This document shows, piece after piece, positions 1,546-10,312 of a DNA stretch of 12,581 nt. Positions within the stretch are counted from its first letter, which is position 1; every line of letters starts with the position of its first letter. This DNA comes from Polynucleobacter sp. (lineage in GTDB: Bacteria > Pseudomonadota > Gammaproteobacteria > Burkholderiales > Burkholderiaceae), in the NCBI GenBank assembly GCA_023257325.1, contig JALRCP010000023.1, positions 1-12,581 of the forward strand. The letters run 5' to 3'. The position numbers and the translations under genes were made by a program. The notes under the pieces were generated by a model, which was not told the origin of the DNA, searched no databases, and worked only from the letters and a program-made list of their open reading frames with translations.

Positions 1546-3072
1546 CTAGAGATTGTCTAAATTATTGAGAATCAATTGAGCATGCTTTGTAATTTTTTTC
1601 TGCTCATCAAGATCAATTTTTTTTAAGTTGGCGGTCATTAGGCGGGTTCTTGGATTGGTATCAAATTCAGCTTGATGGTTGATTAAAAAATTCCAATAAA
1701 GTGTGGTCATTGGACAAGCAGTTTCACCATGACGTTCACTGGATTGATAAACGCACTTTTCACAGTAATTACTCATCCGCTTGATATATGCACCGCTAGC
1801 CACATAAGGCTTGCTTGTGAATCTGCCACCGTTGGCAAACAAAGCCATGCCTGCAGTGTTGGGTAATTCAACCCATTCAAGCGCGTCAACATAGATGGCC
1901 AAATACCAATCACATACTTCTTTAGGCAAAATCTCAGCCAACAAAGCAAAATTTCCTGTGACCATTAATCTTTGAATATGATGTGCATAACCATACTGAA
2001 GAGTTTGCCCGATCGCATCTTGCATACAAGCCATCTTAGTTTCACCCGTCCAATACCACTTGGGAAGTTTTCTTTGATGACCGTAAAAATTTTCTTGAGC
2101 CATGCCAGGCATATCCAAGTAATACATGCCTCTTATGAATTCACGCCAACCTAATATTTGACGTACGAAGCCCTCGACAGCACTCAGCGGTAAATCATTT
2201 TTTTTCCACGCATTTACAGCTGCATCCACTACTTCTTTTGGGCTAATCAGCTTTAAATTTAATGAGCTTGATAGCAATGAGTGCCATCCAAATGGCGTAT
2301 TGGTCCACATGGCGTCTTGGTACATGCCAAACAATGGCAAACGCTCTGCGACGAAATGATCAAGAACCTTGAGAGCCTGATCCCTCGTAACTGGCCAAAA
2401 AAAATATTTACTCGAGCCTGGATGATCGGGATACTGCTTTTCTACCATTTCAATGACCGACTGAGTAATCGCGTCAGGAGAGAACCCAATAGGATGATCA
2501 AGATTAGTGGGTCCTTTTTTAGGATAGGGCTTTCTGTTTTGCTCATCAAAATTCCACTGATTGCCTTCCGGTTCGCCGTTTTCTTGCATCAGCACATGAT
2601 GCTTTTTTCGAAGGTATCGATAAAAGTATTCAAGTCTTAATTCTTTCTTAGCTCCAGCCCACTGCTTAAACTCATCTTGAGAGCAATAGAAATGGTCATC
2701 CTCCGCGAAGGTCACTGAAATATTTAACTGTTTTGCCAAATCTTCTAATTCTTCTTTTAAGCGCCATTCACCGGGTTCCACGCAAACTAAATGCGTGATT
2801 TGGTTTGACAAAATGTGTTTTCTGAGTACATCAGTGATTGAATCTTGACTATTTTCTACGTAAGTCAAATCATATTTTTTTGCTCTCAACTCTTGAGCAA
2901 AATGCCTCATGGCTGATAAAAATAGAATGATTTTTGCTTTATGCGTCCATACGTACTGAGATTCTGTTTTTGACTCAATCATAATGACTTGATCAGTCTT
3001 TGAATCAAAATGATTAAAGGCCGAACTATCGGCCTTTAATTGGTCTCCTAATACTAAGATGAGTTTTTTCAA
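1546..3072 (-). CDS. Iron-sulfur photolyase/cryptochrome-related protein (PhrB-like, FeS-BCP family)
   Basis: Probably a light-driven (6-4) DNA photolyase, or a cryptochrome-like sensor of the same family. The 508 residues match the FeS-BCP/CryPro class: an N-terminal antenna domain opening LILVLGDQL, then an all-helical FAD domain. Four cysteines at 349, 437, 440 and 453 have the spacing of the [4Fe-4S] ligands of Agrobacterium PhrB (350, 438, 441, 454). The active-site pair His364-His365 and the electron-transfer residues Trp341, Trp389 and Tyr390 also align at a constant offset of one (PhrB numbers from memory). The start is a TTG at 3072, needed for the conserved N-terminus. It lies six bases after the regulator's stop, so the two are co-transcribed. 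Family members use FAD and a lumazine antenna. Repair activity is inferred. Confidence 0.9.
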   Translation of the reverse strand: MKKLILVLGDQLKADSSAFNHFDSKTDQVIMIESKTESQYVWTHKAKIILFLSAMRHFAQELRAKKYDLTYVENSQDSITDVLRKHILSNQITHLVCVEPGEWRLKEELEDLAKQLNISVTFAEDDHFYCSQDEFKQWAGAKKELRLEYFYRYLRKKHHVLMQENGEPEGNQWNFDEQNRKPYPKKGPTNLDHPIGFSPDAITQSVIEMVEKQYPDHPGSSKYFFWPVTRDQALKVLDHFVAERLPLFGMYQDAMWTNTPFGWHSLLSSSLNLKLISPKEVVDAAVNAWKKNDLPLSAVEGFVRQILGWREFIRGMYYLDMPGMAQENFYGHQRKLPKWYWTGETKMACMQDAIGQTLQYGYAHHIQRLMVTGNFALLAEILPKEVCDWYLAIYVDALEWVELPNTAGMALFANGGRFTSKPYVASGAYIKRMSNYCEKCVYQSSERHGETACPMTTLYWNFLINHQAEFDTNPRTRLMTANLKKIDLDEQKKITKHAQLILNNLDNL

Positions 3073-3078
3073 TCGAAC

Positions 3079-4041
3079 TCAGTCTGCACGTTTTAAGCGC
3101 CAATCTTTAACGCTTTCAGAAATATCTTGCAGAGCAGCCATCACTTTGATTCCCTCCGGCGTGCGCTTACGCAAGGCTTGATTCTCACCACCGACCCAAA
3201 GCTCAACACCTGGCGCCAACTTTTCTTTTAGTTCATTCAAGCCATCAACCATCTGGTTTTGATTCATCTGAGAAGAGAAGGACAAAGCAATGACATCAGC
3301 TTTTTGAGCTCTTGCAGCTTGTGCAATTTCTAGAATGGGAGTTTGTGTGCCTAAGGAAACGCAGACGCAACCCTCTAAAGCCATTAAAGCCTCAGCCATC
3401 AACAAACCAAGGCTGTGATGCTCTTGAGGGAATGTTGTGAGCAAAATTCTGGGTCTTGCCAAGTCTTCGTTTTGCCCAGTATGTCCTCTTGGCACTGAAT
3501 TAATAGCGGTTCTAAGTAGGTGCTTGATTTGCTCTGTAAACAAATGTTCTTCATGTATTTCAAGCTTGCCTTCAGCCCAATACTCACCAATGTTCTTAAT
3601 GAGTGGCGCAACCACTTCGATGACAAAGCGATCTAAACCAATTTTCATCAAAGTAGTTGAAAGCGCCAACCTCAGGGCTTCTGTTTGATGCGATCTCAAT
3701 AAATCCAAATATCGGTCCATTTCTTCTTGAGAAATGGCAGATACCATGTGTACATTAGGGTCTTTAACCTGACTGGCCCGAGCACTTAATTCTTTCAGTG
3801 CCTCAATGGGCAAAGGCACTATTCGACCTGGGCGGTGCCCTAAATCCAATAATCTTTTTAAAAGTCTGAGTTTTTCAATTTGATCTGCTGGATAGACACG
3901 ATCGTCATTCTTATCCCTAAGGGGAGTAGGGAAGTTATACCGTCTTTCCCACACTCTTAAAGTGTCCTTGGCAATGCCTGTATCCCGCTCAACCGCGGCA
4001 ATACTCAGCATATCCGGCAAATTAGTAAATCGAACATTCAT
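3079..4041 (-). CDS. MerR-family B12-binding photoreceptor/transcriptional regulator (LitR/CarH type)
   Basis: Likely a repressor that binds DNA in the dark with adenosylcobalamin and releases it in light. Numbering here starts at the GTG at 4056 (325 residues). The MerR helix-turn-helix is at about 16-80 (LSIAAVERDTG, DTLRVWERRY). The helical cap domain holds Trp160, nine residues, then Glu170-His171, the Wx9EH signature of the 5'-deoxyadenosyl pocket. The Rossmann-type cobalamin domain (about 202-320) has E212-x-H214-x-x-G217, where His214 should be the lower cobalt ligand, and a late Gly-Gly (289-290). Alanine 161 stands where Thermus CarH has His132. I prefer the ATG at 4041; the GTG at 4056 is in frame and possible. 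It is divergent from gpx and co-transcribed with the photolyase. The fold is sure, the light role inferred. Confidence 0.92.
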   Translation of the reverse strand: MNVRFTNLPDMLSIAAVERDTGIAKDTLRVWERRYNFPTPLRDKNDDRVYPADQIEKLRLLKRLLDLGHRPGRIVPLPIEALKELSARASQVKDPNVHMVSAISQEEMDRYLDLLRSHQTEALRLALSTTLMKIGLDRFVIEVVAPLIKNIGEYWAEGKLEIHEEHLFTEQIKHLLRTAINSVPRGHTGQNEDLARPRILLTTFPQEHHSLGLLMAEALMALEGCVCVSLGTQTPILEIAQAARAQKADVIALSFSSQMNQNQMVDGLNELKEKLAPGVELWVGGENQALRKRTPEGIKVMAALQDISESVKDWRLKRAD

Positions 4042-4094
4042 AATGTGAAAACTCACGATGTGTCGCCAAGTGAATACGAGGTATCGACGTATAA

Positions 4095-4123
4095 ATTCTA
4101 CACTGTCTTAGACATAATTTGCA
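4095..4123 (-). promoter_or_regulatory. Candidate promoter of the regulator-photolyase operon
   Basis: Read on the minus strand, TAGAAT (4095-4100) is a good -10. At 17-base spacing the -35 position (4118-4123, TGCAAA) is poor, as is common for promoters controlled by MerR-type proteins. The palindrome at 4104-4114 lies inside the spacer, the classic place for a MerR-family operator. Transcription would begin about 30-50 bases before either start codon. Confidence 0.4.
4104..4114. promoter_or_regulatory. Candidate operator A, palindrome TGTCTTAGACA
   Basis: Two 5-base arms, TGTCT and AGACA, are perfect inverted repeats about one central base. The core GTC-N3-GAC recurs at 4167-4175 and, with a degenerate right arm, at 4189-4197. 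Its position between the proposed -35 and -10 of the regulator gene suggests autoregulation. Binding is inferred; the element does not match the TRTACA-N12-TGTAYA consensus I recall for Pseudomonas PplR1. Confidence 0.45.
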
Positions 4124-4164
4124 CATTTTTTAAATTGTGATTAATATAGGCACATATTGCTTAT

Positions 4165-4197
4165 TTGTCCAAGACGAAAATTGATCTTGTCCAAGTC
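4165..4197. promoter_or_regulatory. Candidate operators B and C, direct repeat TTGTCCAAGWC at 22-base period
   Basis: TTGTCCAAGAC (4165-4175) and TTGTCCAAGTC (4187-4197) differ at one of 11 positions and start 22 bases apart, two helical turns, so they lie on the same face of the DNA. Read on the minus strand, copy B is GTCTTGGACAA, which matches GTCTTAGACAT of site A (plus strand) at 9 of 11 positions. The pair brackets the proposed -35 of the gpx promoter, as expected for repression. CarH proteins are known to bind tandem repeats with an 11-base unit, so a 22-base period would fit. Confidence 0.5.
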
Positions 4198-4209
4198 CGC
4201 AAACATATT
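4181..4209 (+). promoter_or_regulatory. Candidate promoter of gpx-folE2
   Basis: TTGATC (4181-4186) and CATATT (4204-4209) are separated by 17 bases and give a plausible sigma-70 promoter. It would start transcription about 15-20 bases before the ATG at 4235. The -35 lies between operator copies B and C. Both hexamers are imperfect, so this is a proposal only. Confidence 0.35.
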
Positions 4210-4220
4210 AAAAATGGGTC

Positions 4221-4227
4221 GAGGAGA
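4221..4227 (+). promoter_or_regulatory. Ribosome binding site that sets the gpx start
   Basis: GAGGAGA is a strong Shine-Dalgarno sequence seven bases before the ATG at 4235. It makes that ATG the start, over the in-frame ATG at 4214 or the upstream TTG at 4157, which lies within or before the proposed promoter. Confidence 0.7.
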
Positions 4228-4234
4228 CAACCCA

Positions 4235-4870
4235 ATGTTGGTCGATGTTAAGAGTAGACCGAACCCCCCAAGAGTGGCGGGCAATAGTCGTGGGGGTCAC
4301 TTTTTCAGGATAACCGCCCTGGTTAGCCTGTTTTTTGCATTGATGTGGTTTTCTTGGCCAAAGGATGCTCAAGCAATGACATGCTCCAAAACTCTTTCTC
4401 ACACATTTTTGAGACTTCAAGATGAAGCTCCCCAAAATCTATGTCAGTACCAAGGAAAAGTGGTCCTGGTGGTCAATACCGCCAGTTACTGTGGTTTTAC
4501 GAGTCAGTACGAAGGTCTAGAAAAACTCTACAGTCAATATAAAGATAGAGGGCTGGTGGTTCTTGGTTTCCCATCCAATGACTTTGGCAAACAAGAGCCT
4601 GGCAGCAATAAAGAAATTGCAGAGTTTTGCCACAACACCTACGGCGTGAAGTTCCCAATGTTTGCCAAGTCTTCTGTGACTGGTCCAGATGCAAATCCTT
4701 TGTTCAAGCATTTGATTGAACAAACCGGAACTAAACCACGCTGGAACTTTTACAAATATCTCATTGATCGTCAAGGAAAAGTGATTGATGCGTACAGCAG
4801 CATGACCTCACCCACAAGCAAATCAATGCTTGCCCAAATTGAAAAATTACTTCAGGAGAAAGCTCAATGA
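4235..4870 (+). CDS. Exported glutathione peroxidase-family peroxidase
   Basis: Reduces hydrogen peroxide or lipid peroxides using glutathione or, more often in bacteria, thioredoxin. From the ATG at 4235 there are 211 residues. A basic N-terminus, a hydrophobic helix (about 23-40) and a possible signal-peptidase site after AQA (47) point to export or a membrane anchor, unlike the usual cytoplasmic enzymes. The catalytic tetrad is visible: Cys86 in NTASYCGFT, Gln120 in GKQEPG, and Trp170-Asn171 in RWNFYKY. Cys132 in EFCHNTYG sits where the resolving cysteine of thioredoxin-dependent enzymes lies. The usual FPCNQFG is FPSNDFG here. The stop overlaps folE2 (ATGA), so the genes are coupled. It is divergent from the photoreceptor and a glutathione peroxidase belongs to the singlet-oxygen regulon of Rhodobacter (from memory), which fits an oxidant-defence role. 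Confidence 0.9.
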   Translation: MLVDVKSRPNPPRVAGNSRGGHFFRITALVSLFFALMWFSWPKDAQAMTCSKTLSHTFLRLQDEAPQNLCQYQGKVVLVVNTASYCGFTSQYEGLEKLYSQYKDRGLVVLGFPSNDFGKQEPGSNKEIAEFCHNTYGVKFPMFAKSSVTGPDANPLFKHLIEQTGTKPRWNFYKYLIDRQGKVIDAYSSMTSPTSKSMLAQIEKLLQEKAQ

Positions 4871-5670
4871 ACGCACCAGAAAATATTTTTCTGCCTGATG
4901 TCCAATCTAGTTTGGATGAACGCAACATTGTCATTCAAAAAGTTGGTATCAAGTCAGTTCGCCATCCTGTACAACTAAAAACCAAAGCGGGCGTTCAATC
5001 GAGCATTGCGATGATTGACATGACAGTCAAGCTTCCAGGGAATGTCAAAGGTACGCACATGTCAAGATTTTTAGAAGTCTTGCAAAATGAACACCGCCCA
5101 CTGGAGTTCAATACAGTTCGCGAATTAATGACTAACATGCTTAATCGCTTAGAGGCGAATGAAGGTCACATCGATTTAAAAATGCCTCTCTTTTTAAATA
5201 AAGTAGCGCCAGTATCTGGCGTTGAGAGCTTACTAGACTACGATCTTCACATCAAAGCTGCTTATGAAAAAGGCATACTTCGCTATACCTTGCAAGTTCA
5301 AGTCCCCGTGACCAGTTTATGTCCTTGCTCTAAAAAGATTTCTCAATATGGCGCACACAATCAACGATCACACATTGTGATCGCTGCTGAGCTTACCGAA
5401 AGCATGGACGCAGAAGATTTAATCAAAATTGCTGAACAGGCAGCTTCTTGTGAACTTTGGGGTTTGCTCAAACGACCTGATGAGAAGTACGTCACAGAAA
5501 AAGCTTACGAAAATCCTAAGTTTGTTGAGGATTTGGTGAGAGACATTGCTGTTGCACTTGAGAATGAGAGCAAAGTGGTGGCCTATGAAGTTTCTTCTGA
5601 AAACTTTGAATCTATCCATAACCATTCAGCCTATGCATGGTTGGCCAACGACAAACGAAATAACCATTAA
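4867..5670 (+). CDS. folE2: GTP cyclohydrolase FolE2 (type IB)
   Basis: Converts GTP to 7,8-dihydroneopterin triphosphate, the first step of folate and pterin synthesis, in the cytoplasm. The 267 residues are typical. CPCSK (152-156), GAHNQRS (162-168), LLKRPDEKYVTE (200-211) and NPKFVED (216-222) are family signatures. Cys152, His164, Glu221 and His251 align at a constant offset of five with Cys147, His159, Glu216 and His246 of Neisseria FolE2, the metal and active-site residues as I remember them. Unlike FolE1, this form does not depend strictly on zinc. The ATG overlaps the gpx stop. A folE gene is reported as light-induced under LitR homologues in Pseudomonas putida, so its place beside the photoreceptor looks meaningful. 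It may supply folate cofactor or simply be the housekeeping enzyme. Confidence 0.95.
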   Translation: MNAPENIFLPDVQSSLDERNIVIQKVGIKSVRHPVQLKTKAGVQSSIAMIDMTVKLPGNVKGTHMSRFLEVLQNEHRPLEFNTVRELMTNMLNRLEANEGHIDLKMPLFLNKVAPVSGVESLLDYDLHIKAAYEKGILRYTLQVQVPVTSLCPCSKKISQYGAHNQRSHIVIAAELTESMDAEDLIKIAEQAASCELWGLLKRPDEKYVTEKAYENPKFVEDLVRDIAVALENESKVVAYEVSSENFESIHNHSAYAWLANDKRNNH

Positions 5671-5677
5671 CCCTTTT

Positions 5678-5762
5678 AACCACAAGACATGAAGCCTACT
5701 GAGCGCAGTTTCTCTCCCTCCCTTATTTTTGCTCAGGGGTGTCTTGTGGTTTTCTTCTTTTT
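5678..5762 (+). terminator. Long hairpin with T-rich tail between folE2 and the lipid operon
   Basis: AACCACAAGACA (5678-5689) and TGTCTTGTGGTT (5740-5751) form a perfect 12-base inverted repeat. Inside it CTGAGC (5699-5704) pairs with GCTCAG (5731-5736), leaving a 26-base pyrimidine-rich loop. A T-rich run (TTTTCTTCTTTTT, 5750-5762) follows. The stem begins eight bases after the folE2 stop. It fits a factor-independent terminator, though the 50-base space inside the outer stem is much longer than usual. It could instead be a partial attenuator or a processed RNA end. No convincing promoter lies between it and the next start at 5781. Confidence 0.6.
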
Positions 5763-5780
5763 ACATAACCTGAGACTTTC

Positions 5781-7112
5781 ATGAAAATCGCCATCGTTGG
5801 AGCCGGAATTTCAGGTCTTGGTTGCGCCTACGCCTTAAGCAAATTCAAGGAATTTGAGATCACTTTGTATGAAAGTGGCGACCATATTGGTGGGCACAGC
5901 AACACAATTGATTTAGCACTGGACACTCCCGTTGGAACAATTACCCATGGTATTGATACAGGTTTTTTAGTATTCAATCAAAGGACATATCCAAGACTTC
6001 TTCGCTTGTTTCATGAGCTAAAAGTTGACATCGCGAAATCTGAGATGTCATTTTCAGTGTCCATTCCCAAAAAAGATGGCGGTACGCTTGAATGGGCAGG
6101 TACAAACATTGATTCTCTATTTGCACAACGACAAAACATCGTTAGCCCCTCCTTTTTAAAGATGGTCAAAGACATCATCAAATTCAATCGTCTATGCACT
6201 GATTTAGCCAAAGATAAAAAATTAGACAATCTTGAATTGACTGTTGGAGAATTTTTAAATAAGCACCGTTTGAGTCAGCAATTTAGAGATTGGTATTTTT
6301 TACCGATGGTGGGCGCTATTTGGTCATGCCCAGTGGCTCAAATGTTGAATTTTCCGATATCAACCATGATTCGATTTTGCTTTAACCATGGATTGATTCA
6401 AATTTCTGATAGACCGCAATGGTTGACTGTTCAAGGTGGCTCTAGAGAATACGTGAAAAAAATTGTTGCTCACCTTGAAAATCATGGCAGTCAATTCAAA
6501 CGGTCTCAGGTTAAATCGGTTGTACGAAAAAATAATTCAGTTGAAATCATCACCGATACTGAAATCAACACCTATGACCACGTCGTGATGGCTTGTCACA
6601 GCGATCAAGCATTAAAAGTTCTTTCGGATGCCAGTGCCGACGAAAGCGCTATTTTGGGATCGATTCATTATCAAGATAATCGAGCTGTTCTACATACCGA
6701 TAGCTCCGTTCTGCCAGAAAATAAAAAATGTTGGTCAGCTTGGAACTACGCAACGACCCAAAACGAAAATCTTCACGATCAACAAGTTTGTGTCAATTAT
6801 TTAATTAATAAACTCCAACCTTTGCCAGCAGCTTGGGCAGACCAAGCAGTGATTGTTAGCTTAAACCCTGTTCAAGAACCCCAAAAAAGTAAAGTACGAG
6901 CTGACATTCAATATGCGCACCCCATTTTTGATGAAGCTGCCATTAAGGCTCAACATCAGCTACCCATGATTCAAGGCGTTCATCACACATGGTTTTGCGG
7001 TGCCTGGACAGGTTACGGCTTTCATGAGGATGGTCTTCGCTCCGGTGAACTAGTGGCTGAAGCTTTGACTGAGATGATTCACCTTCCAGCCAAGCAAGCT
7101 GTCACTGCATGA
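5781..7112 (+). CDS. FAD-dependent oxidoreductase, COG2907/amine-oxidase-like
   Basis: A flavoprotein of 443 residues and the first gene of the lipid operon. The N-terminal dinucleotide-binding fold shows IVGAGISGLG (5-14), the acidic Glu31 that binds ribose, and IGGHSNT (36-42). The motif GIDTGFLVFNQRTYP follows at about 57-71. A C-terminal FAD signature GAWTGYGFHEDGLRSGE is at about 407-423. No signal peptide or membrane helix is evident. Homologues sit beside DUF1365 and Cfa-like genes in many proteobacteria, and UfaD, the desaturase of furan fatty-acid synthesis, is a candidate relative; I am not certain of that link. A desaturating or oxidising role on membrane acyl chains is inferred. 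The stop overlaps the next start (ATGA, 7109-7112). GAGA lies upstream of the ATG as a modest ribosome site. Confidence 0.85.
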   Translation: MKIAIVGAGISGLGCAYALSKFKEFEITLYESGDHIGGHSNTIDLALDTPVGTITHGIDTGFLVFNQRTYPRLLRLFHELKVDIAKSEMSFSVSIPKKDGGTLEWAGTNIDSLFAQRQNIVSPSFLKMVKDIIKFNRLCTDLAKDKKLDNLELTVGEFLNKHRLSQQFRDWYFLPMVGAIWSCPVAQMLNFPISTMIRFCFNHGLIQISDRPQWLTVQGGSREYVKKIVAHLENHGSQFKRSQVKSVVRKNNSVEIITDTEINTYDHVVMACHSDQALKVLSDASADESAILGSIHYQDNRAVLHTDSSVLPENKKCWSAWNYATTQNENLHDQQVCVNYLINKLQPLPAAWADQAVIVSLNPVQEPQKSKVRADIQYAHPIFDEAAIKAQHQLPMIQGVHHTWFCGAWTGYGFHEDGLRSGELVAEALTEMIHLPAKQAVTA

Positions 7113-7882
7113 GCATTGCCAAAATATGTTTTGGGCAAGTAAGACATGCACGCCTAAAGCCTGCAAAGAATGCATTCTCTTATTCAGTATTTACTTTGCG
7201 CATTCCCATGCGCCTAAGATCCAGATCTAACAACGGAATTTCAAGTTTTGGTGTTGGCGACAACCATTGGTCTTGGTTATCTTTTTTTGATAAGGATCAC
7301 GGTCAAGGAAAAGATAATTCACTGGAATGGGCTGTCAATTTAGTTCAATCTCAAGGCATTCAAGACATTGATGGTGAGGTTTGGCTACAAACTTTTCCAA
7401 GAGTACTCGGCTACGTGTTTAATCCAGTGAGTTTTTGGTTTTTTGAAAACTCCACTGGAAAACTCAAGGCGGTCTTGGCTGAAGTCAATAATACTTTTGG
7501 TGAGCGGCACTGTTACTTGTTGACCCATGAAGATGGCCGCCCAATTCAATGGGGCGAGAGCTTTTCCTCCAACAAAGTTTTTCATGTATCACCTTTTTGC
7601 GAAGTCAAAGGTCATTATCTTTTCCGGTTTTTTTCAAAGCCTGAAACTGGACAACACATCGCTCGAATTGAATACCATGATCAAGGCCCCTTATTAATCA
7701 CCAGCGTGAATGGAAAAGAAAATCCATTGAATGGAAAAACACTTTTATGGTCTGCATTGAGATATCCCGCAATGAGCATTGGAGTCATTGTTCGGATTCA
7801 CTGGCAAGCTCTGCGTTTGTGGCTTAAAGGTGTTAAATTCCACAGTAAACCCGCACCCCCTACTACAGAAGTTAGTCAATGA
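7109..7882 (+). CDS. DUF1365 family protein (COG3496)
   Basis: A 257-residue member of an uncharacterised family found almost always beside a COG2907 flavoprotein and a Cfa-like methyltransferase. Recognisable conserved blocks are GQVRHARLKPAKNAFSY (9-25), LGYVFNPVSFWFF (100-112), AEVNNTFGERHCYLL (124-138) and NKVFHVSPFCEVKGHY (155-170). The conserved His, Cys, Glu and Arg residues in these blocks could be catalytic, but no reaction is established that I know of. No signal peptide is clear. The start overlaps the flavoprotein stop and the stop overlaps the cfa-like start, both as ATGA, so the three proteins should be made in step and may act on one phospholipid substrate. Confidence 0.88.
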   Translation: MSIAKICFGQVRHARLKPAKNAFSYSVFTLRIPMRLRSRSNNGISSFGVGDNHWSWLSFFDKDHGQGKDNSLEWAVNLVQSQGIQDIDGEVWLQTFPRVLGYVFNPVSFWFFENSTGKLKAVLAEVNNTFGERHCYLLTHEDGRPIQWGESFSSNKVFHVSPFCEVKGHYLFRFFSKPETGQHIARIEYHDQGPLLITSVNGKENPLNGKTLLWSALRYPAMSIGVIVRIHWQALRLWLKGVKFHSKPAPPTTEVSQ

Positions 7883-9102
7883 ACTCAAATATTGAAGTCA
7901 TCCAAGATTTTTCTGAGGCGCTTCCATGGCATGCCAAGGCGGTTCTCTCACTGTTGCAAAAAATTCAGGTGGGTACACTCAAACTTTACAGCCCATCTGG
8001 TGAACTGTATACATTCAAAGGATCTCAACCGGGTCTTGAAGCCAATATTCATATTCATGACTGGAATGTCTGCAAGGCCTGTTTAAAAGCCGGTGATATT
8101 GGCTTTTCGGAAGCGTATATTGATGGGCTTTGGGACTCATCAGATATCCAAACACTTCTCAGATTATTTTTAGCCAACAGAAATGTGATTGAAACAGCGA
8201 TTTACGGTAGTTGGTGGGGTCGCTTAGGTTATCGCATCAAGCATTGGCTCAACAAGAACTCTAAATCTGGTAGCAAAAAGAACATTCATGCTCATTACGA
8301 TATAGGAAATGCCTTTTACTCTCTGTGGTTAGATCCCAGCATGACTTATTCAAGTGCTTGCTTTGATCATCAAGATATTCCTCTGATTGAAGCGCAACAA
8401 AAAAAATATCAAAGAATCATTGATTCCTTAAACCTTCAACAAGGTGAAAAAATTCTTGAGGTTGGATGTGGATGGGGCGGCTTGATGGAGGCTGCCACCC
8501 TCCAAGGCATAGATATTGATTGCTTAACTATTTCACAAGAGCAAGCCAAATACGCCAAAGACCGTGTCAATCGATTAAGCACTAAAGCAGCTCAAGGCCA
8601 TGCAGAAATTTTCATTCAAGATTATCGAGATCATCATGAGCAGTACGATGGAATCGCCTCCATTGAAATGTTTGAGGCAGTCGGTGAAGCGTACTGGCCA
8701 AGCTACTTTGCAATGATTAATCGATGCTTAAAACCAGGCAAAAAAGCGTGTATTCAAACGATTGTGATTGCAGATGAATTATTTGATAAATACAGAAATA
8801 GTTCTGACTTTATTCAGCAATATGTTTTTCCAGGTGGCATGTTGCCATCTATAGAAAAATTCAAAATAGCCGCCAAGAAACAAGGTTTGGTAGTTGAGTC
8901 AATCTATTCATTTGGCCAAGACTATCAAAAAACTCTGTGCCTATGGCATGAAAAGTTTAATCAACAACTTGATCAAGTCAAAGCCCAAGGCTTTGACCAA
9001 AGATTCATCAGACTTTGGAATCTATATTTGATGTACTGCGCTGCAGGTTTTGCAGAAAAGAGTACAGACGTGATTCAATTTACTCTCTCCAAGCCTCACT
9101 GA
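7879..9102 (+). CDS. Cyclopropane-fatty-acid-synthase-like SAM methyltransferase, possibly UfaM-like
   Basis: Transfers a methylene or methyl group from SAM to the double bond of an unsaturated acyl chain in membrane phospholipid. The 407 residues comprise an N-terminal lipid-binding region (about 1-130) and a class I methyltransferase domain with LEVGCGWGG (193-201). HYDIGNAFY (139-147) and MTYSSACF (155-162) match Cfa family blocks. Against E. coli Cfa, Glu266, Ile295 and Tyr349 keep Glu239, Ile268 and Tyr317, but Ser159 replaces Cys139 and Gln293 replaces His266. These residues bind the catalytic bicarbonate in Cfa. The QTI motif with FIQQYVFPGGMLPS (311-324) is typical of the Cfa-like proteins that travel with DUF1365. 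A methyl-adding UfaM-like activity is therefore at least as likely as cyclopropanation. It is coupled to DUF1365 by ATGA. Confidence 0.88.
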   Translation: MNSNIEVIQDFSEALPWHAKAVLSLLQKIQVGTLKLYSPSGELYTFKGSQPGLEANIHIHDWNVCKACLKAGDIGFSEAYIDGLWDSSDIQTLLRLFLANRNVIETAIYGSWWGRLGYRIKHWLNKNSKSGSKKNIHAHYDIGNAFYSLWLDPSMTYSSACFDHQDIPLIEAQQKKYQRIIDSLNLQQGEKILEVGCGWGGLMEAATLQGIDIDCLTISQEQAKYAKDRVNRLSTKAAQGHAEIFIQDYRDHHEQYDGIASIEMFEAVGEAYWPSYFAMINRCLKPGKKACIQTIVIADELFDKYRNSSDFIQQYVFPGGMLPSIEKFKIAAKKQGLVVESIYSFGQDYQKTLCLWHEKFNQQLDQVKAQGFDQRFIRLWNLYLMYCAAGFAEKSTDVIQFTLSKPH

Positions 9103-9103
9103 C

Positions 9104-9883
9104 ATGAGTCTTAATCAGCGCATCATTAGCTTTTACAACAAGCGCATTTGGATCATCGGGGCATCCAGCGGCATTGGCGAGGCGTGTGCCAATGCTTTTC
9201 TTAGCCATGGCGCTAAAGTAGCCATCAGTGCAAGACGAAATGAAAAGTTAGAAAAAATTAAAACTCGTTGGCCCAATGACCAATGCTTATCAATTACTGC
9301 AGATGTTCAAAATTATGAAACCATGGAAATGGCCTACAAAGCCATTGAAAATAAATGGGGCGGAATTGACTTAATGCTTTATGTTGCCGGCATTTATGAA
9401 CCCATGCGTGCTGATAATTTTCAATTGAATCAAGCAAAAAGGATGATTGACACCAATCTCATTGGTGCAATGTCAGCTTGCTCAATTGTTTTGCCACGCA
9501 TGCTAGAGAACAAAAGCGGGGGCATCGCCATTGTTGGTAGCGTCGCAGGGTATAGCGGACTTCCCCAAGCTTTGGCATACGGCCCCACAAAAGCTGCTCT
9601 TATTAATTACTGCGAAACACTCTACTATGATTTAAGACCTAAAGGTCTTAATGTGTACATGATCAATCCTGGATTTGTTGAGACAGAGGCTACAGCAAAA
9701 AATGATTTTGAAATGCCCGCCTTAATAAGCGCCTCTCAAGCAGCCGAAGAAATATTAGATGGCATACAAGCGGGTCAATTTGACATTCATTTTCCTAAAA
9801 GATTTTCTATCTTCCTGAAATTTCTTCGCCTTTTGCCCTATCCAGCTTATTTTTATTTACTAAAGAAATTCATCAAAATTTAA
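9104..9883 (+). CDS. Short-chain dehydrogenase/reductase (SDR)
   Basis: A classical SDR of 259 residues. GASSGIG (19-25) is the NAD(P) glycine motif, and Arg44-Arg45 after strand two favours NADPH. Asp67 contacts adenine, Asn118 is the structural Asn, and Ser146, Tyr159 and Lys163 form the catalytic set. The usual NNAG reads YVAG (93-96). After about residue 231 a basic, aromatic tail (PKRF...YLLKKFIKI) could hold the enzyme at the membrane surface. The ATG follows the cfa-like stop after one base and no good ribosome site is seen, so translation is probably coupled. An SDR is a regular partner in the DUF1365/Cfa-like gene sets. The substrate is unknown; an oxidised acyl-lipid intermediate is a reasonable inference. 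Confidence 0.87.
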   Translation: MSLNQRIISFYNKRIWIIGASSGIGEACANAFLSHGAKVAISARRNEKLEKIKTRWPNDQCLSITADVQNYETMEMAYKAIENKWGGIDLMLYVAGIYEPMRADNFQLNQAKRMIDTNLIGAMSACSIVLPRMLENKSGGIAIVGSVAGYSGLPQALAYGPTKAALINYCETLYYDLRPKGLNVYMINPGFVETEATAKNDFEMPALISASQAAEEILDGIQAGQFDIHFPKRFSIFLKFLRLLPYPAYFYLLKKFIKI

Positions 9884-10312
9884 ATGTTGAAGCTTCACAC
9901 TCAAGCAGTTATTCATCAATTTGAATCGTTGACTCTAGATTCAATCGACCAACTTGTGGCTCTTTACGATTCACAAGCATCTTTCAAAGATCCATTCAAT
10001 GAAGTTACAGGGCATCCGGCCATTCGTCGTATTTTTACCCACATGTTCAGTCAGGTGAATCACCCACGATTTCACATTAAAGACATCATTGAACAAAACT
10101 CTCAAGCATGCTTAAGCTGGGAGTTTCATTTTGAATTTAAATCATCGCCAGATAAAACCCAAACAATTAAAGGCTGCACATGGTTTGTATTTAATGAGTC
10201 TGGCCTGATTATCAGTCATCGAGATTATTGGGATGCCGCAGAGGAACTATATGAAAAGTTGCCTTACTTGGGTGGCCTAATGAAATGGCTAAAGAAAAAG
10301 GCCCAACATTAG
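9884..10312 (+). CDS. SnoaL/NTF2-like protein
   Basis: A 142-residue protein with the layout of the SnoaL-like/NTF2 fold: an N-terminal helix pair, then ALYDSQASFKDPF (about 27-39) with the acidic-aromatic DPF typical of these pockets, a helix around GHPAIRRIF, and later strands ending with HRDYWDAAEELY (about 111-122). The tail is lysine-rich. Members act as small isomerases, hydrolases or ligand binders, so the reaction cannot be read from sequence. The ATG directly abuts the TAA of the SDR with no bases between. It is the last gene of the operon, and its final codons and stop lie inside the terminator hairpin. SnoaL-like proteins recur in the related light- or singlet-oxygen-regulated gene sets. 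Confidence 0.82.
   Translation: MLKLHTQAVIHQFESLTLDSIDQLVALYDSQASFKDPFNEVTGHPAIRRIFTHMFSQVNHPRFHIKDIIEQNSQACLSWEFHFEFKSSPDKTQTIKGCTWFVFNESGLIISHRDYWDAAEELYEKLPYLGGLMKWLKKKAQH

Follow-up and report, generated by a model that had tools for sequence, protein, structure and literature searches.

Paired predicted operators point to a B12-type LitR as the probable regulator of a photo-oxidative defence gene cluster in Polynucleobacter

A stretch of 12,581 nucleotides from Polynucleobacter sp. (GenBank assembly GCA_023257325.1, contig JALRCP010000023.1; hereafter the window) carries nine genes between positions 1546 and 10312 that encode a LitR/CarH-type regulator, a photolyase, a glutathione peroxidase (gpx), the GTP cyclohydrolase FolE2 and, in one putative operon, five proteins linked to lipid modification. 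The question raised by this locus is whether a single cobalamin-dependent regulator switches all of these genes. An earlier sequence-only reading had proposed such an island; the clustering it described is real, since an open reading frame (ORF) check placed all nine genes at the expected positions and each gave a Pfam match above the cut-off. We consider it likely, with a probability of roughly 0.66, that the genes form a regulon for defence against photo-oxidation, under one adenosylcobalamin (AdoCbl)-binding LitR that acts via a single bidirectional control region. Among the relatives examined, predicted operators around the central promoter were found only where a B12-type LitR is present, and one regulator therefore probably switches the set. 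We infer that the cluster responds to light and to B12.

The control region lies between litR (3079-4056, minus strand) and gpx (plus strand). The litR start should probably be moved to about 4041, as the litR ORF of genome G027 opens at MNVRF. The gpx ORF was listed from a TTG at 4157; the better start is probably the ATG at 4235, which is preceded by a Shine-Dalgarno-like GAGGAG, giving a gene at 4235-4870. With these two starts the intergenic region spans about 193 bp. Two 13-bp palindromes were predicted as operators by a matrix trained without the genus: operator 1, CTGTCTTAGACAT (4103-4115; 12.8 bits), and operator 2, TTGTCCAAGACGA (4165-4177; 13.5 bits), which lie 62 bp apart. Between them a gpx promoter was predicted from the sequence (4119-4147, plus strand; -35 TTGCAC, 17 bp, -10 TAATAT), with operator 1 directly ahead of its -35 element and operator 2 beginning 17 bp past its -10 element. 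The offset of this promoter (16 bp, spacer 17) is the same in four of five named genus loci (L144-L146, L148). On the minus strand, a promoter for litR and the photolyase gene phr was likewise predicted (4095-4123), with a -10 element TAGAAT (4095-4100) that is retained or almost so in the genus loci compared and a weak -35 element TGCAAA (4118-4123); operator 1 falls within its spacer. A possible third, degenerate half-operator, TTGTCCAAG (4187-4199), is a direct repeat of the left half of operator 2; it has no matrix score and is variable among the other genus loci. A weaker operator-like match (9.6 bits) was observed at about 3962 inside the litR coding sequence, likewise in G005 (locus L117). 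A conserved hairpin in the 5' untranslated region of gpx was considered and rejected, as it folded no better than shuffled sequences in four of four folds.

To place the palindrome in a wider context, we used the best 80 of 576 confirmed LitR loci of Burkholderiales. TGTC-N3-GACA was present at most about 500 bp upstream of litR in 70 of these 80 loci, compared to 7 of 2448 same-length stretches elsewhere in the loci and a mean of 0.7 loci in dinucleotide shuffles. The strict form TTGTC-N3-GACAA matched 47 times, 46 times upstream of litR and once inside a litR. When a site-derived matrix was trained and scored on the same loci, at least one site was obtained in 78/80 and at least two in 52/80, with 138 matches versus 9 in shuffled regions. 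Pairs of operators 62-64 bp apart occurred in 37 loci (62 bp in 21, 63 bp in 12, 64 bp in 4), compared to a mean of 0.74 and a maximum of 5 in 2000 trials of random placement, and their spacers fell into 27 clusters at 70% identity. The best sigma-70-like match pointing away from litR was located wholly inside the pair in 22 of the 37 loci, versus 1 of 37 on the opposite strand. In 30 of 70 loci, compared to an expectation of 2.5, the best promoter match began just within the site proximal to litR, regardless of pairing. The genes faced by the pairs were gpx (13), the gene for a flavin adenine dinucleotide (FAD)-binding oxidoreductase that opens the lipid operon (9) and folE2 (2), with none recognised within 1 kb in the remaining 13. 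When all spacings were tested for helical phase, 10.5 bp did not stand out, and we therefore limit the claim to the 62-64 bp peak. No description of the palindrome as an operator was found in the literature searched, a search that left the most relevant J. Bacteriol. LitR papers outside.

Within the genus, close relatives of the window LitR were found in 6 of 37 genomes and in 4 of 64 further genomes (10/101), the other 91 being without this LitR; the nearest named relative is that of Polynucleobacter sp. AM-26B4 (90% identity). We scanned the 630 bp before gpx (before the FAD gene in G032) with the genus-free matrix in the ten LitR-positive genomes and in 28 of the 91 LitR-negative ones, all of which keep gpx or the FAD gene. 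A site was present in 10/10 LitR-positive and 0/28 LitR-negative genomes. The 62-bp pair was scored in nine of the ten, the partner site of G006 falling under the threshold with this matrix; a matrix from all named loci scored the pair in genus locus L147. These distributions bear on the idea that the palindrome belongs to another regulator travelling with the cluster, LitR being a passenger. Such a regulator would be compatible with the facts that binding of LitR to the palindrome is a prediction from sequence and that sites exist at other loci too; the lack of a site in all 28 LitR-negative genomes that keep gpx or the FAD gene and the position of 46 of the 47 strict matches upstream of litR make it very improbable.

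Operator copies were also seen in other settings. The 13 loci in which a pair faces no cluster gene within 1 kb (L161, L173, L174, L176, L179, L181, L188, L194, L196, L204, L207, L208, L219) belong mostly to Duganella, Massilia and relatives and retain the 62-bp operator pair. Strict copies away from the main litR (L339 in G039, L340 in G046, L341 in G037, L342 in G052) precede a set of short-chain dehydrogenase, FAD_binding_7 photolyase and DUF3429 genes, a fasciclin gene and a WYL regulator gene; a distant strict copy is also located near a folE2-like gene and a FAD_binding_7 photolyase gene. A perfect palindrome, TGTCTTAGACA, precedes a phaZ-like gene (polyhydroxyalkanoate-depolymerase-like, by reading) by about 140 bp in 7 of the 10 LitR-positive genus genomes (L274, L275, L276, L277, L279, L280, L292). 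It is absent from G005, G065 and G113 and from G032 (L125), the sole LitR-negative genome compared, whose phaZ is close to that of the LitR-positive strains and which has no litR and arranges phr and the lipid operon otherwise. The seven genomes may be one clade, and we regard this palindrome as a lead, not a claim.

The gene order itself is conserved in related genomes, which argues against chance grouping. In 65 of the 80 loci, a B12-domain LitR gene and its neighbour, which is gpx, folE2 or the FAD-DUF1365-cfa operon, are divergently oriented, the nearest divergent gene of the window type within 1 kb being gpx in 38, the FAD gene in 23 and folE2 in 4, with none in 15. The same orientation was found in six of seven LitR-carrying relatives at order level, which represent six families (G053, G038, G039, G048, G046 and G037; not G052). 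Thus, the arrangement is old, and the suggestion that the B12 regulator had taken over the set is not supported if a local event is meant. The photolyase gene adjoins litR in the window and in all nine other LitR-positive genus loci; with the window photolyase as query, it was found within the stretch in 14/80. Of eight LitR-negative genus loci, seven retain the lipid operon with its neighbours unchanged, G032 being rearranged; the frames of G017 look broken. All eight lack litR and folE2, six lack phr, and gpx and the FAD gene are adjacent or overlapping in six. DUF1365 was present in 36/37 genus genomes.

The LitR protein combines an N-terminal MerR helix-turn-helix (PF13411, MerR_1) with a B12-binding four-helix domain (PF02607, B12-binding_2) and a B12-binding Rossmann domain (PF02310, B12-binding), all above cut-off, as in class I LitR/CarH proteins; its solved relative is CarH (5c8d, 8.8e-22). 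The score for the NCBIfam CarH equivalog NF052513 was 105.4 bits, with a cut-off of 400. For residue comparison we used the window LitR and those of 79 loci (n = 80; L186 was excluded as mis-framed). The published light signature consists of GxxW, EH, GxxH and GxxxP (PMC11796333; here and below, papers are cited for those parts of their text that were available). Of the 80 LitRs, 78 retain GxxW, EH, the cobalt-ligating His and GxxxP, and 12 the full four-part signature, so that the published signature would mostly miss what is possibly a group of B12 photoreceptors. The window LitR retains W160, E170-H171, H214 and GxxxP, the Gly of GxxH being replaced by Gln. The adenosyltransferase family PF01923 was present in 99/101 genus genomes, among them the genome of the window, where it is in two pieces. 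From the retained residues, AdoCbl binding by LitR is well supported, and a light response is plausible.

Several observations weigh against a regulon switched by LitR through paired operators. No 62-64 bp pair is present in 43/80 loci, and in 13 of the 37 loci with a pair, none of the cluster genes lies closer than 1 kb. Across seven whole order-level genomes the strict palindrome was counted at 41 places, compared to 14 for the reversed control; a strict copy at litR is present in just four of the seven. In the genus, the looser form of the operator was just modestly above its control: TGYCYWAGACA gave 106 matches versus 78 for the reversed pattern in 20 genomes, split into 61 versus 45 in ten LitR-positive and 45 versus 33 in ten LitR-negative genomes; in the genome of the window TTGTCYAAG was not enriched (19 versus 28 in the control). 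Moreover, the LitR-positive genomes may be one lineage, and the operator test within the genus is thus not free of shared descent. On the side of the protein, the Gly of the published GxxH is kept in just 13/80 LitRs, and the position of His132 of Thermus CarH (TtCarH) is His in 0/80, being Ala in the window; TtCarH H132A is reported to remain mostly tetrameric in light (PMC10442372), and CtMerR, with Arg at this position, is nonetheless reported to monomerise in light (PMC11796333). A hairpin ahead of the lipid operon could separate its control from that of the other genes, and the lack of the alternative cyclohydrolase FolE1 in nine of the ten LitR-positive genomes means that full repression in the dark would starve the cells of folate. 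Joint control, as suspected in the sequence-only reading, gains from the LitR-linked operators at the divergent promoter region of litR-phr and gpx-folE2-(lipid operon), and is qualified by the hairpin and by the probable role of FolE2 as sole GTP cyclohydrolase I.

FolE2 (GTP cyclohydrolase IB, GCHY-1; 4867-5670, plus strand) gave 305.4 bits for PF02649 and a match to NF010200 over its cut-off. The folE product of Pseudomonas is a GTP cyclohydrolase of a different type. GTP cyclohydrolase IA (FolE1, PF01227) was detected in 1/10 LitR-positive and 4/5 LitR-negative genus genomes tested, and G006 also lacks FolE2 at the cluster locus, the one place to which this statement refers. In 8/10 LitR-positive genomes, three of these eight being less than 90% complete, FolE2 thus probably has no second GTP cyclohydrolase I beside it and may be the housekeeping enzyme. 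Complete shutdown of the gpx-folE2 arm in the dark is therefore hardly to be expected, and repression is probably partial. This need for folate also enters an explanation in which LitR acts via the operators with AdoCbl status or redox state, and not light, as its signal, so that loss of AdoCbl or oxidation of cobalt would release LitR; the presence of folE2 in the operon would in that case couple the supply of folate to that of B12. The missing His132 equivalent, the probable position of FolE2 as sole enzyme of its kind in eight genomes and the peroxide and lipid genes in the set agree with such a sensor. We nevertheless regard it as unlikely, as 78/80 LitRs retain GxxW, EH, the cobalt His and GxxxP of the light signature, the photolyase gene adjoins litR throughout the LitR-positive genus loci and lies within 14/80 named stretches, and a related LitR cluster has been shown to respond to light (PMC9758184).

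Between folE2 and the FAD gene, an RNA hairpin was detected at 5675-5758 (plus strand; folding z -3.18) on the basis of folding, covariation and conservation. Its 16-nt pyrimidine loop, TTTCTCTCCCTCCCTT, is invariant in 8/10 LitR-positive genus genomes; diverged copies occur in the other two (L242, E 5.7e-9; L243, E 3.7e-8), and the next match among 57 sources searched was L128 (E 0.058). Ten cells were changed on both sides of the stem, a number as high in 0/500 shuffles, and the covariation score was 0.214 against 0.127. The number of pair types was not in excess (295/500 shuffles), and no Rfam match overlapped 5675-5758 at E up to 1. The hairpin as a repeat was rejected: its loop pattern had one match in each of 10/101 genus genomes, the matches in G003 and G098 being unrelated sequence. 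It presumably resembles the Rhodobacter CcsR 'cuckoo' RNAs in its C-rich loop only, a motif not given in PMC10253847, and we claim no membership. The hairpin is present without folE2 (G006) and without the lipid operon (G009), is followed by a T-rich tract, and its stem ends about 29 bp before the FAD start. It is most likely a partial terminator or a 3' untranslated RNA element.

If the hairpin acted as a terminator, LitR might govern litR-phr and gpx-folE2 only, with the lipid operon under separate control. The T-rich tract, the retention of the hairpin in G009 and the lack of strict operators at other positions of the 80 loci, bar the one inside a litR, would be in line with this. The gap of about 29 bp, on the other hand, leaves little room for a promoter, and its one promoter-like match (5760-5788) came from a scan no richer than shuffles. 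In addition, the FAD gene is the first divergent gene of the window type in 23/80 loci, and gpx and the FAD gene adjoin or overlap in 6/8 LitR-negative loci. Separate control of the lipid operon thus appears quite improbable.

With one LitR-controlled regulon as the preferred reading, the following mechanism may be proposed. The 62-64 bp between operators amount to some six helical turns; the pair in the window brackets the predicted gpx promoter. In the dark, AdoCbl-LitR, probably as a tetramer of two dimers, would occupy both operators and lower transcription of both arms, including that of litR itself, repression of the gpx-folE2 arm having to be partial. Cleavage of the Co-C bond by light would make LitR release the DNA, with a joint rise of the photolyase, the exported peroxidase, FolE2 and the enzymes of lipid modification; the hairpin behind folE2 probably sets how much of the transcription extends into the lipid operon. 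A further-reaching idea, which we put forward tentatively, is that LitR of Burkholderiales represents a distinct type of B12 photoreceptor: a tetramer without bis-His switch would bridge palindromes 62-64 bp apart and cage the promoter until light breaks the bridge, so that a gene set of the kind governed in other proteobacteria by extracytoplasmic function (ECF) sigma factors and ChrR would be under B12-light control, with the covarying hairpin tuning the lipid arm.

The gene set itself is already known from other systems. A photo-oxidative regulon of the RpoE/ChrR type in Rhodobacter is similar, as the sequence-only reading had noted. We searched 44 genomes for ChrR (TIGR02451, cut-off 124.5, with Caulobacter as positive control); 0/44 were over the cut-off, 32/44 had weak matches that did not exceed about 45 bits, and the genome of the window (78.6% complete) had none. 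The latter contains one ECF-like sigma ORF (L004, under the Pfam cut-off), and the next ORF is not ChrR-like by reading. A singlet-oxygen sigma/ChrR system in this incomplete genome was rejected, as no ChrR was over the cut-off, which agrees with the earlier remark that no such pair is visible. In Shewanella, the predicted RpoE2/ChrR regulon comprises a periplasmic glutathione peroxidase, photolyases, cfa and a short-chain dehydrogenase (PMC4336711); the likeness of gene kinds is thus borne out, the control in Shewanella being by an ECF sigma factor with ChrR. The action of blue light in V. cholerae runs through ChrR and a MerR gene that adjoins a photolyase gene (PMC5241685).

In Pseudomonas, phrB, a short-chain dehydrogenase gene, a FAD oxidoreductase gene and ufaM are located beside a LitR gene, and folE is among the light-induced genes, under class II LitR (PMC9758184); the sequence-only reading had named phrB, ufaM and folE of P. 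putida as light-induced. The gene set of the window is like that of the PmlR1/PplR1 cluster (class II LitR and a short light-oxygen-voltage (LOV) protein). In contrast to the window LitR, which has PF02310, class II LitR is believed not to bind B12, and a LOV protein releases PmlR2 (PMC9758184). The Pseudomonas site T(G/A)TACA-N12-TGTA(C/T)A (TGTACA-N12-TGTACA) was found in 0/80 upstream regions and not in that of the window. CarH controls carotenogenesis through 11-bp direct repeats nAnnTnnACAn (PMC8156234). With CarH/LitR of class I (Thermus, B. megaterium, M. xanthus), the window LitR shares the MerR helix-turn-helix, the AdoCbl domains, GxxW, EH and the cobalt His, and is likewise presumed to be a dark repressor; it differs in its 13-bp palindromes, paired at 62-64 bp in 37/80 loci, and in lacking His132. 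Two exact tandem copies of the CarH-type repeat were found in 0/80 upstream regions, nor in that of the window. The class III LitR of Burkholderia multivorans, a photosensor of the same family from a betaproteobacterium, is described as lacking a C terminus of the B12 type and as depending on a different chromophore (PMC9758184, PMC6739363), and is set apart by these descriptions. Taken together, this suggests that similar photo-oxidative gene sets are wired to three sensors: ECF sigma/ChrR, LOV with class II LitR, and B12 LitR. For the last of these, a concrete operator can now be predicted across Burkholderiales, and the clustered genes become a predicted regulon.

The remaining genes of the cluster are as follows. 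The photolyase/cryptochrome gene (1546-3072, minus strand) is second behind litR, 6 bp separating the litR stop from its start. Its product carries a DPRP domain (PF04244, 260.5 bits) and is closest to CryB (3zxs, 2e-142), with PhrB (4dja, 5.7e-135) lower in the list, which places it among the FeS-BCP photolyases; common Cys residues, read off the CryB alignment, are ones we take to have a role in the FeS cluster. The peroxidase (PF00255, GSHPx, 124.9 bits) is, by reading of its sequence, probably of the Cys type and exported, given its signal-peptide-like N terminus. The lipid operon (all on the plus strand) consists of genes for an amine-oxidase-like FAD/NAD(P)-binding oxidoreductase (5781-7112; PF01593, Amino_oxidase, and PF13450, NAD_binding_8), a DUF1365 protein (7109-7882; PF07103, 250.8 bits), a Cfa-like S-adenosylmethionine-dependent lipid methyltransferase (CMAS; 7879-9102; PF02353, 272 bits), a short-chain dehydrogenase (adh_short; 9104-9883; PF00106, 149.9 bits) and, last, a SnoaL_2-like protein (9884-10312; PF12680, 58.9 bits). 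The operon of the window is shorter than that of G039, in which Chalcone_3, MFS_2 and DUF3833 genes stand between cfa and the short-chain dehydrogenase gene. The flanking genes, named by reading, are ordinary, coaX-like and hldE-like on one side and dsbA-like, SPOR-like and argS-like on the other; the assembly of 1.22 Mb is in 217 contigs. In G009 (L118, about 8494-8705) the genes from FAD to SnoaL are missing, and sequences like the FAD start and the SnoaL end abut, a junction that may be a deletion or an assembly join.

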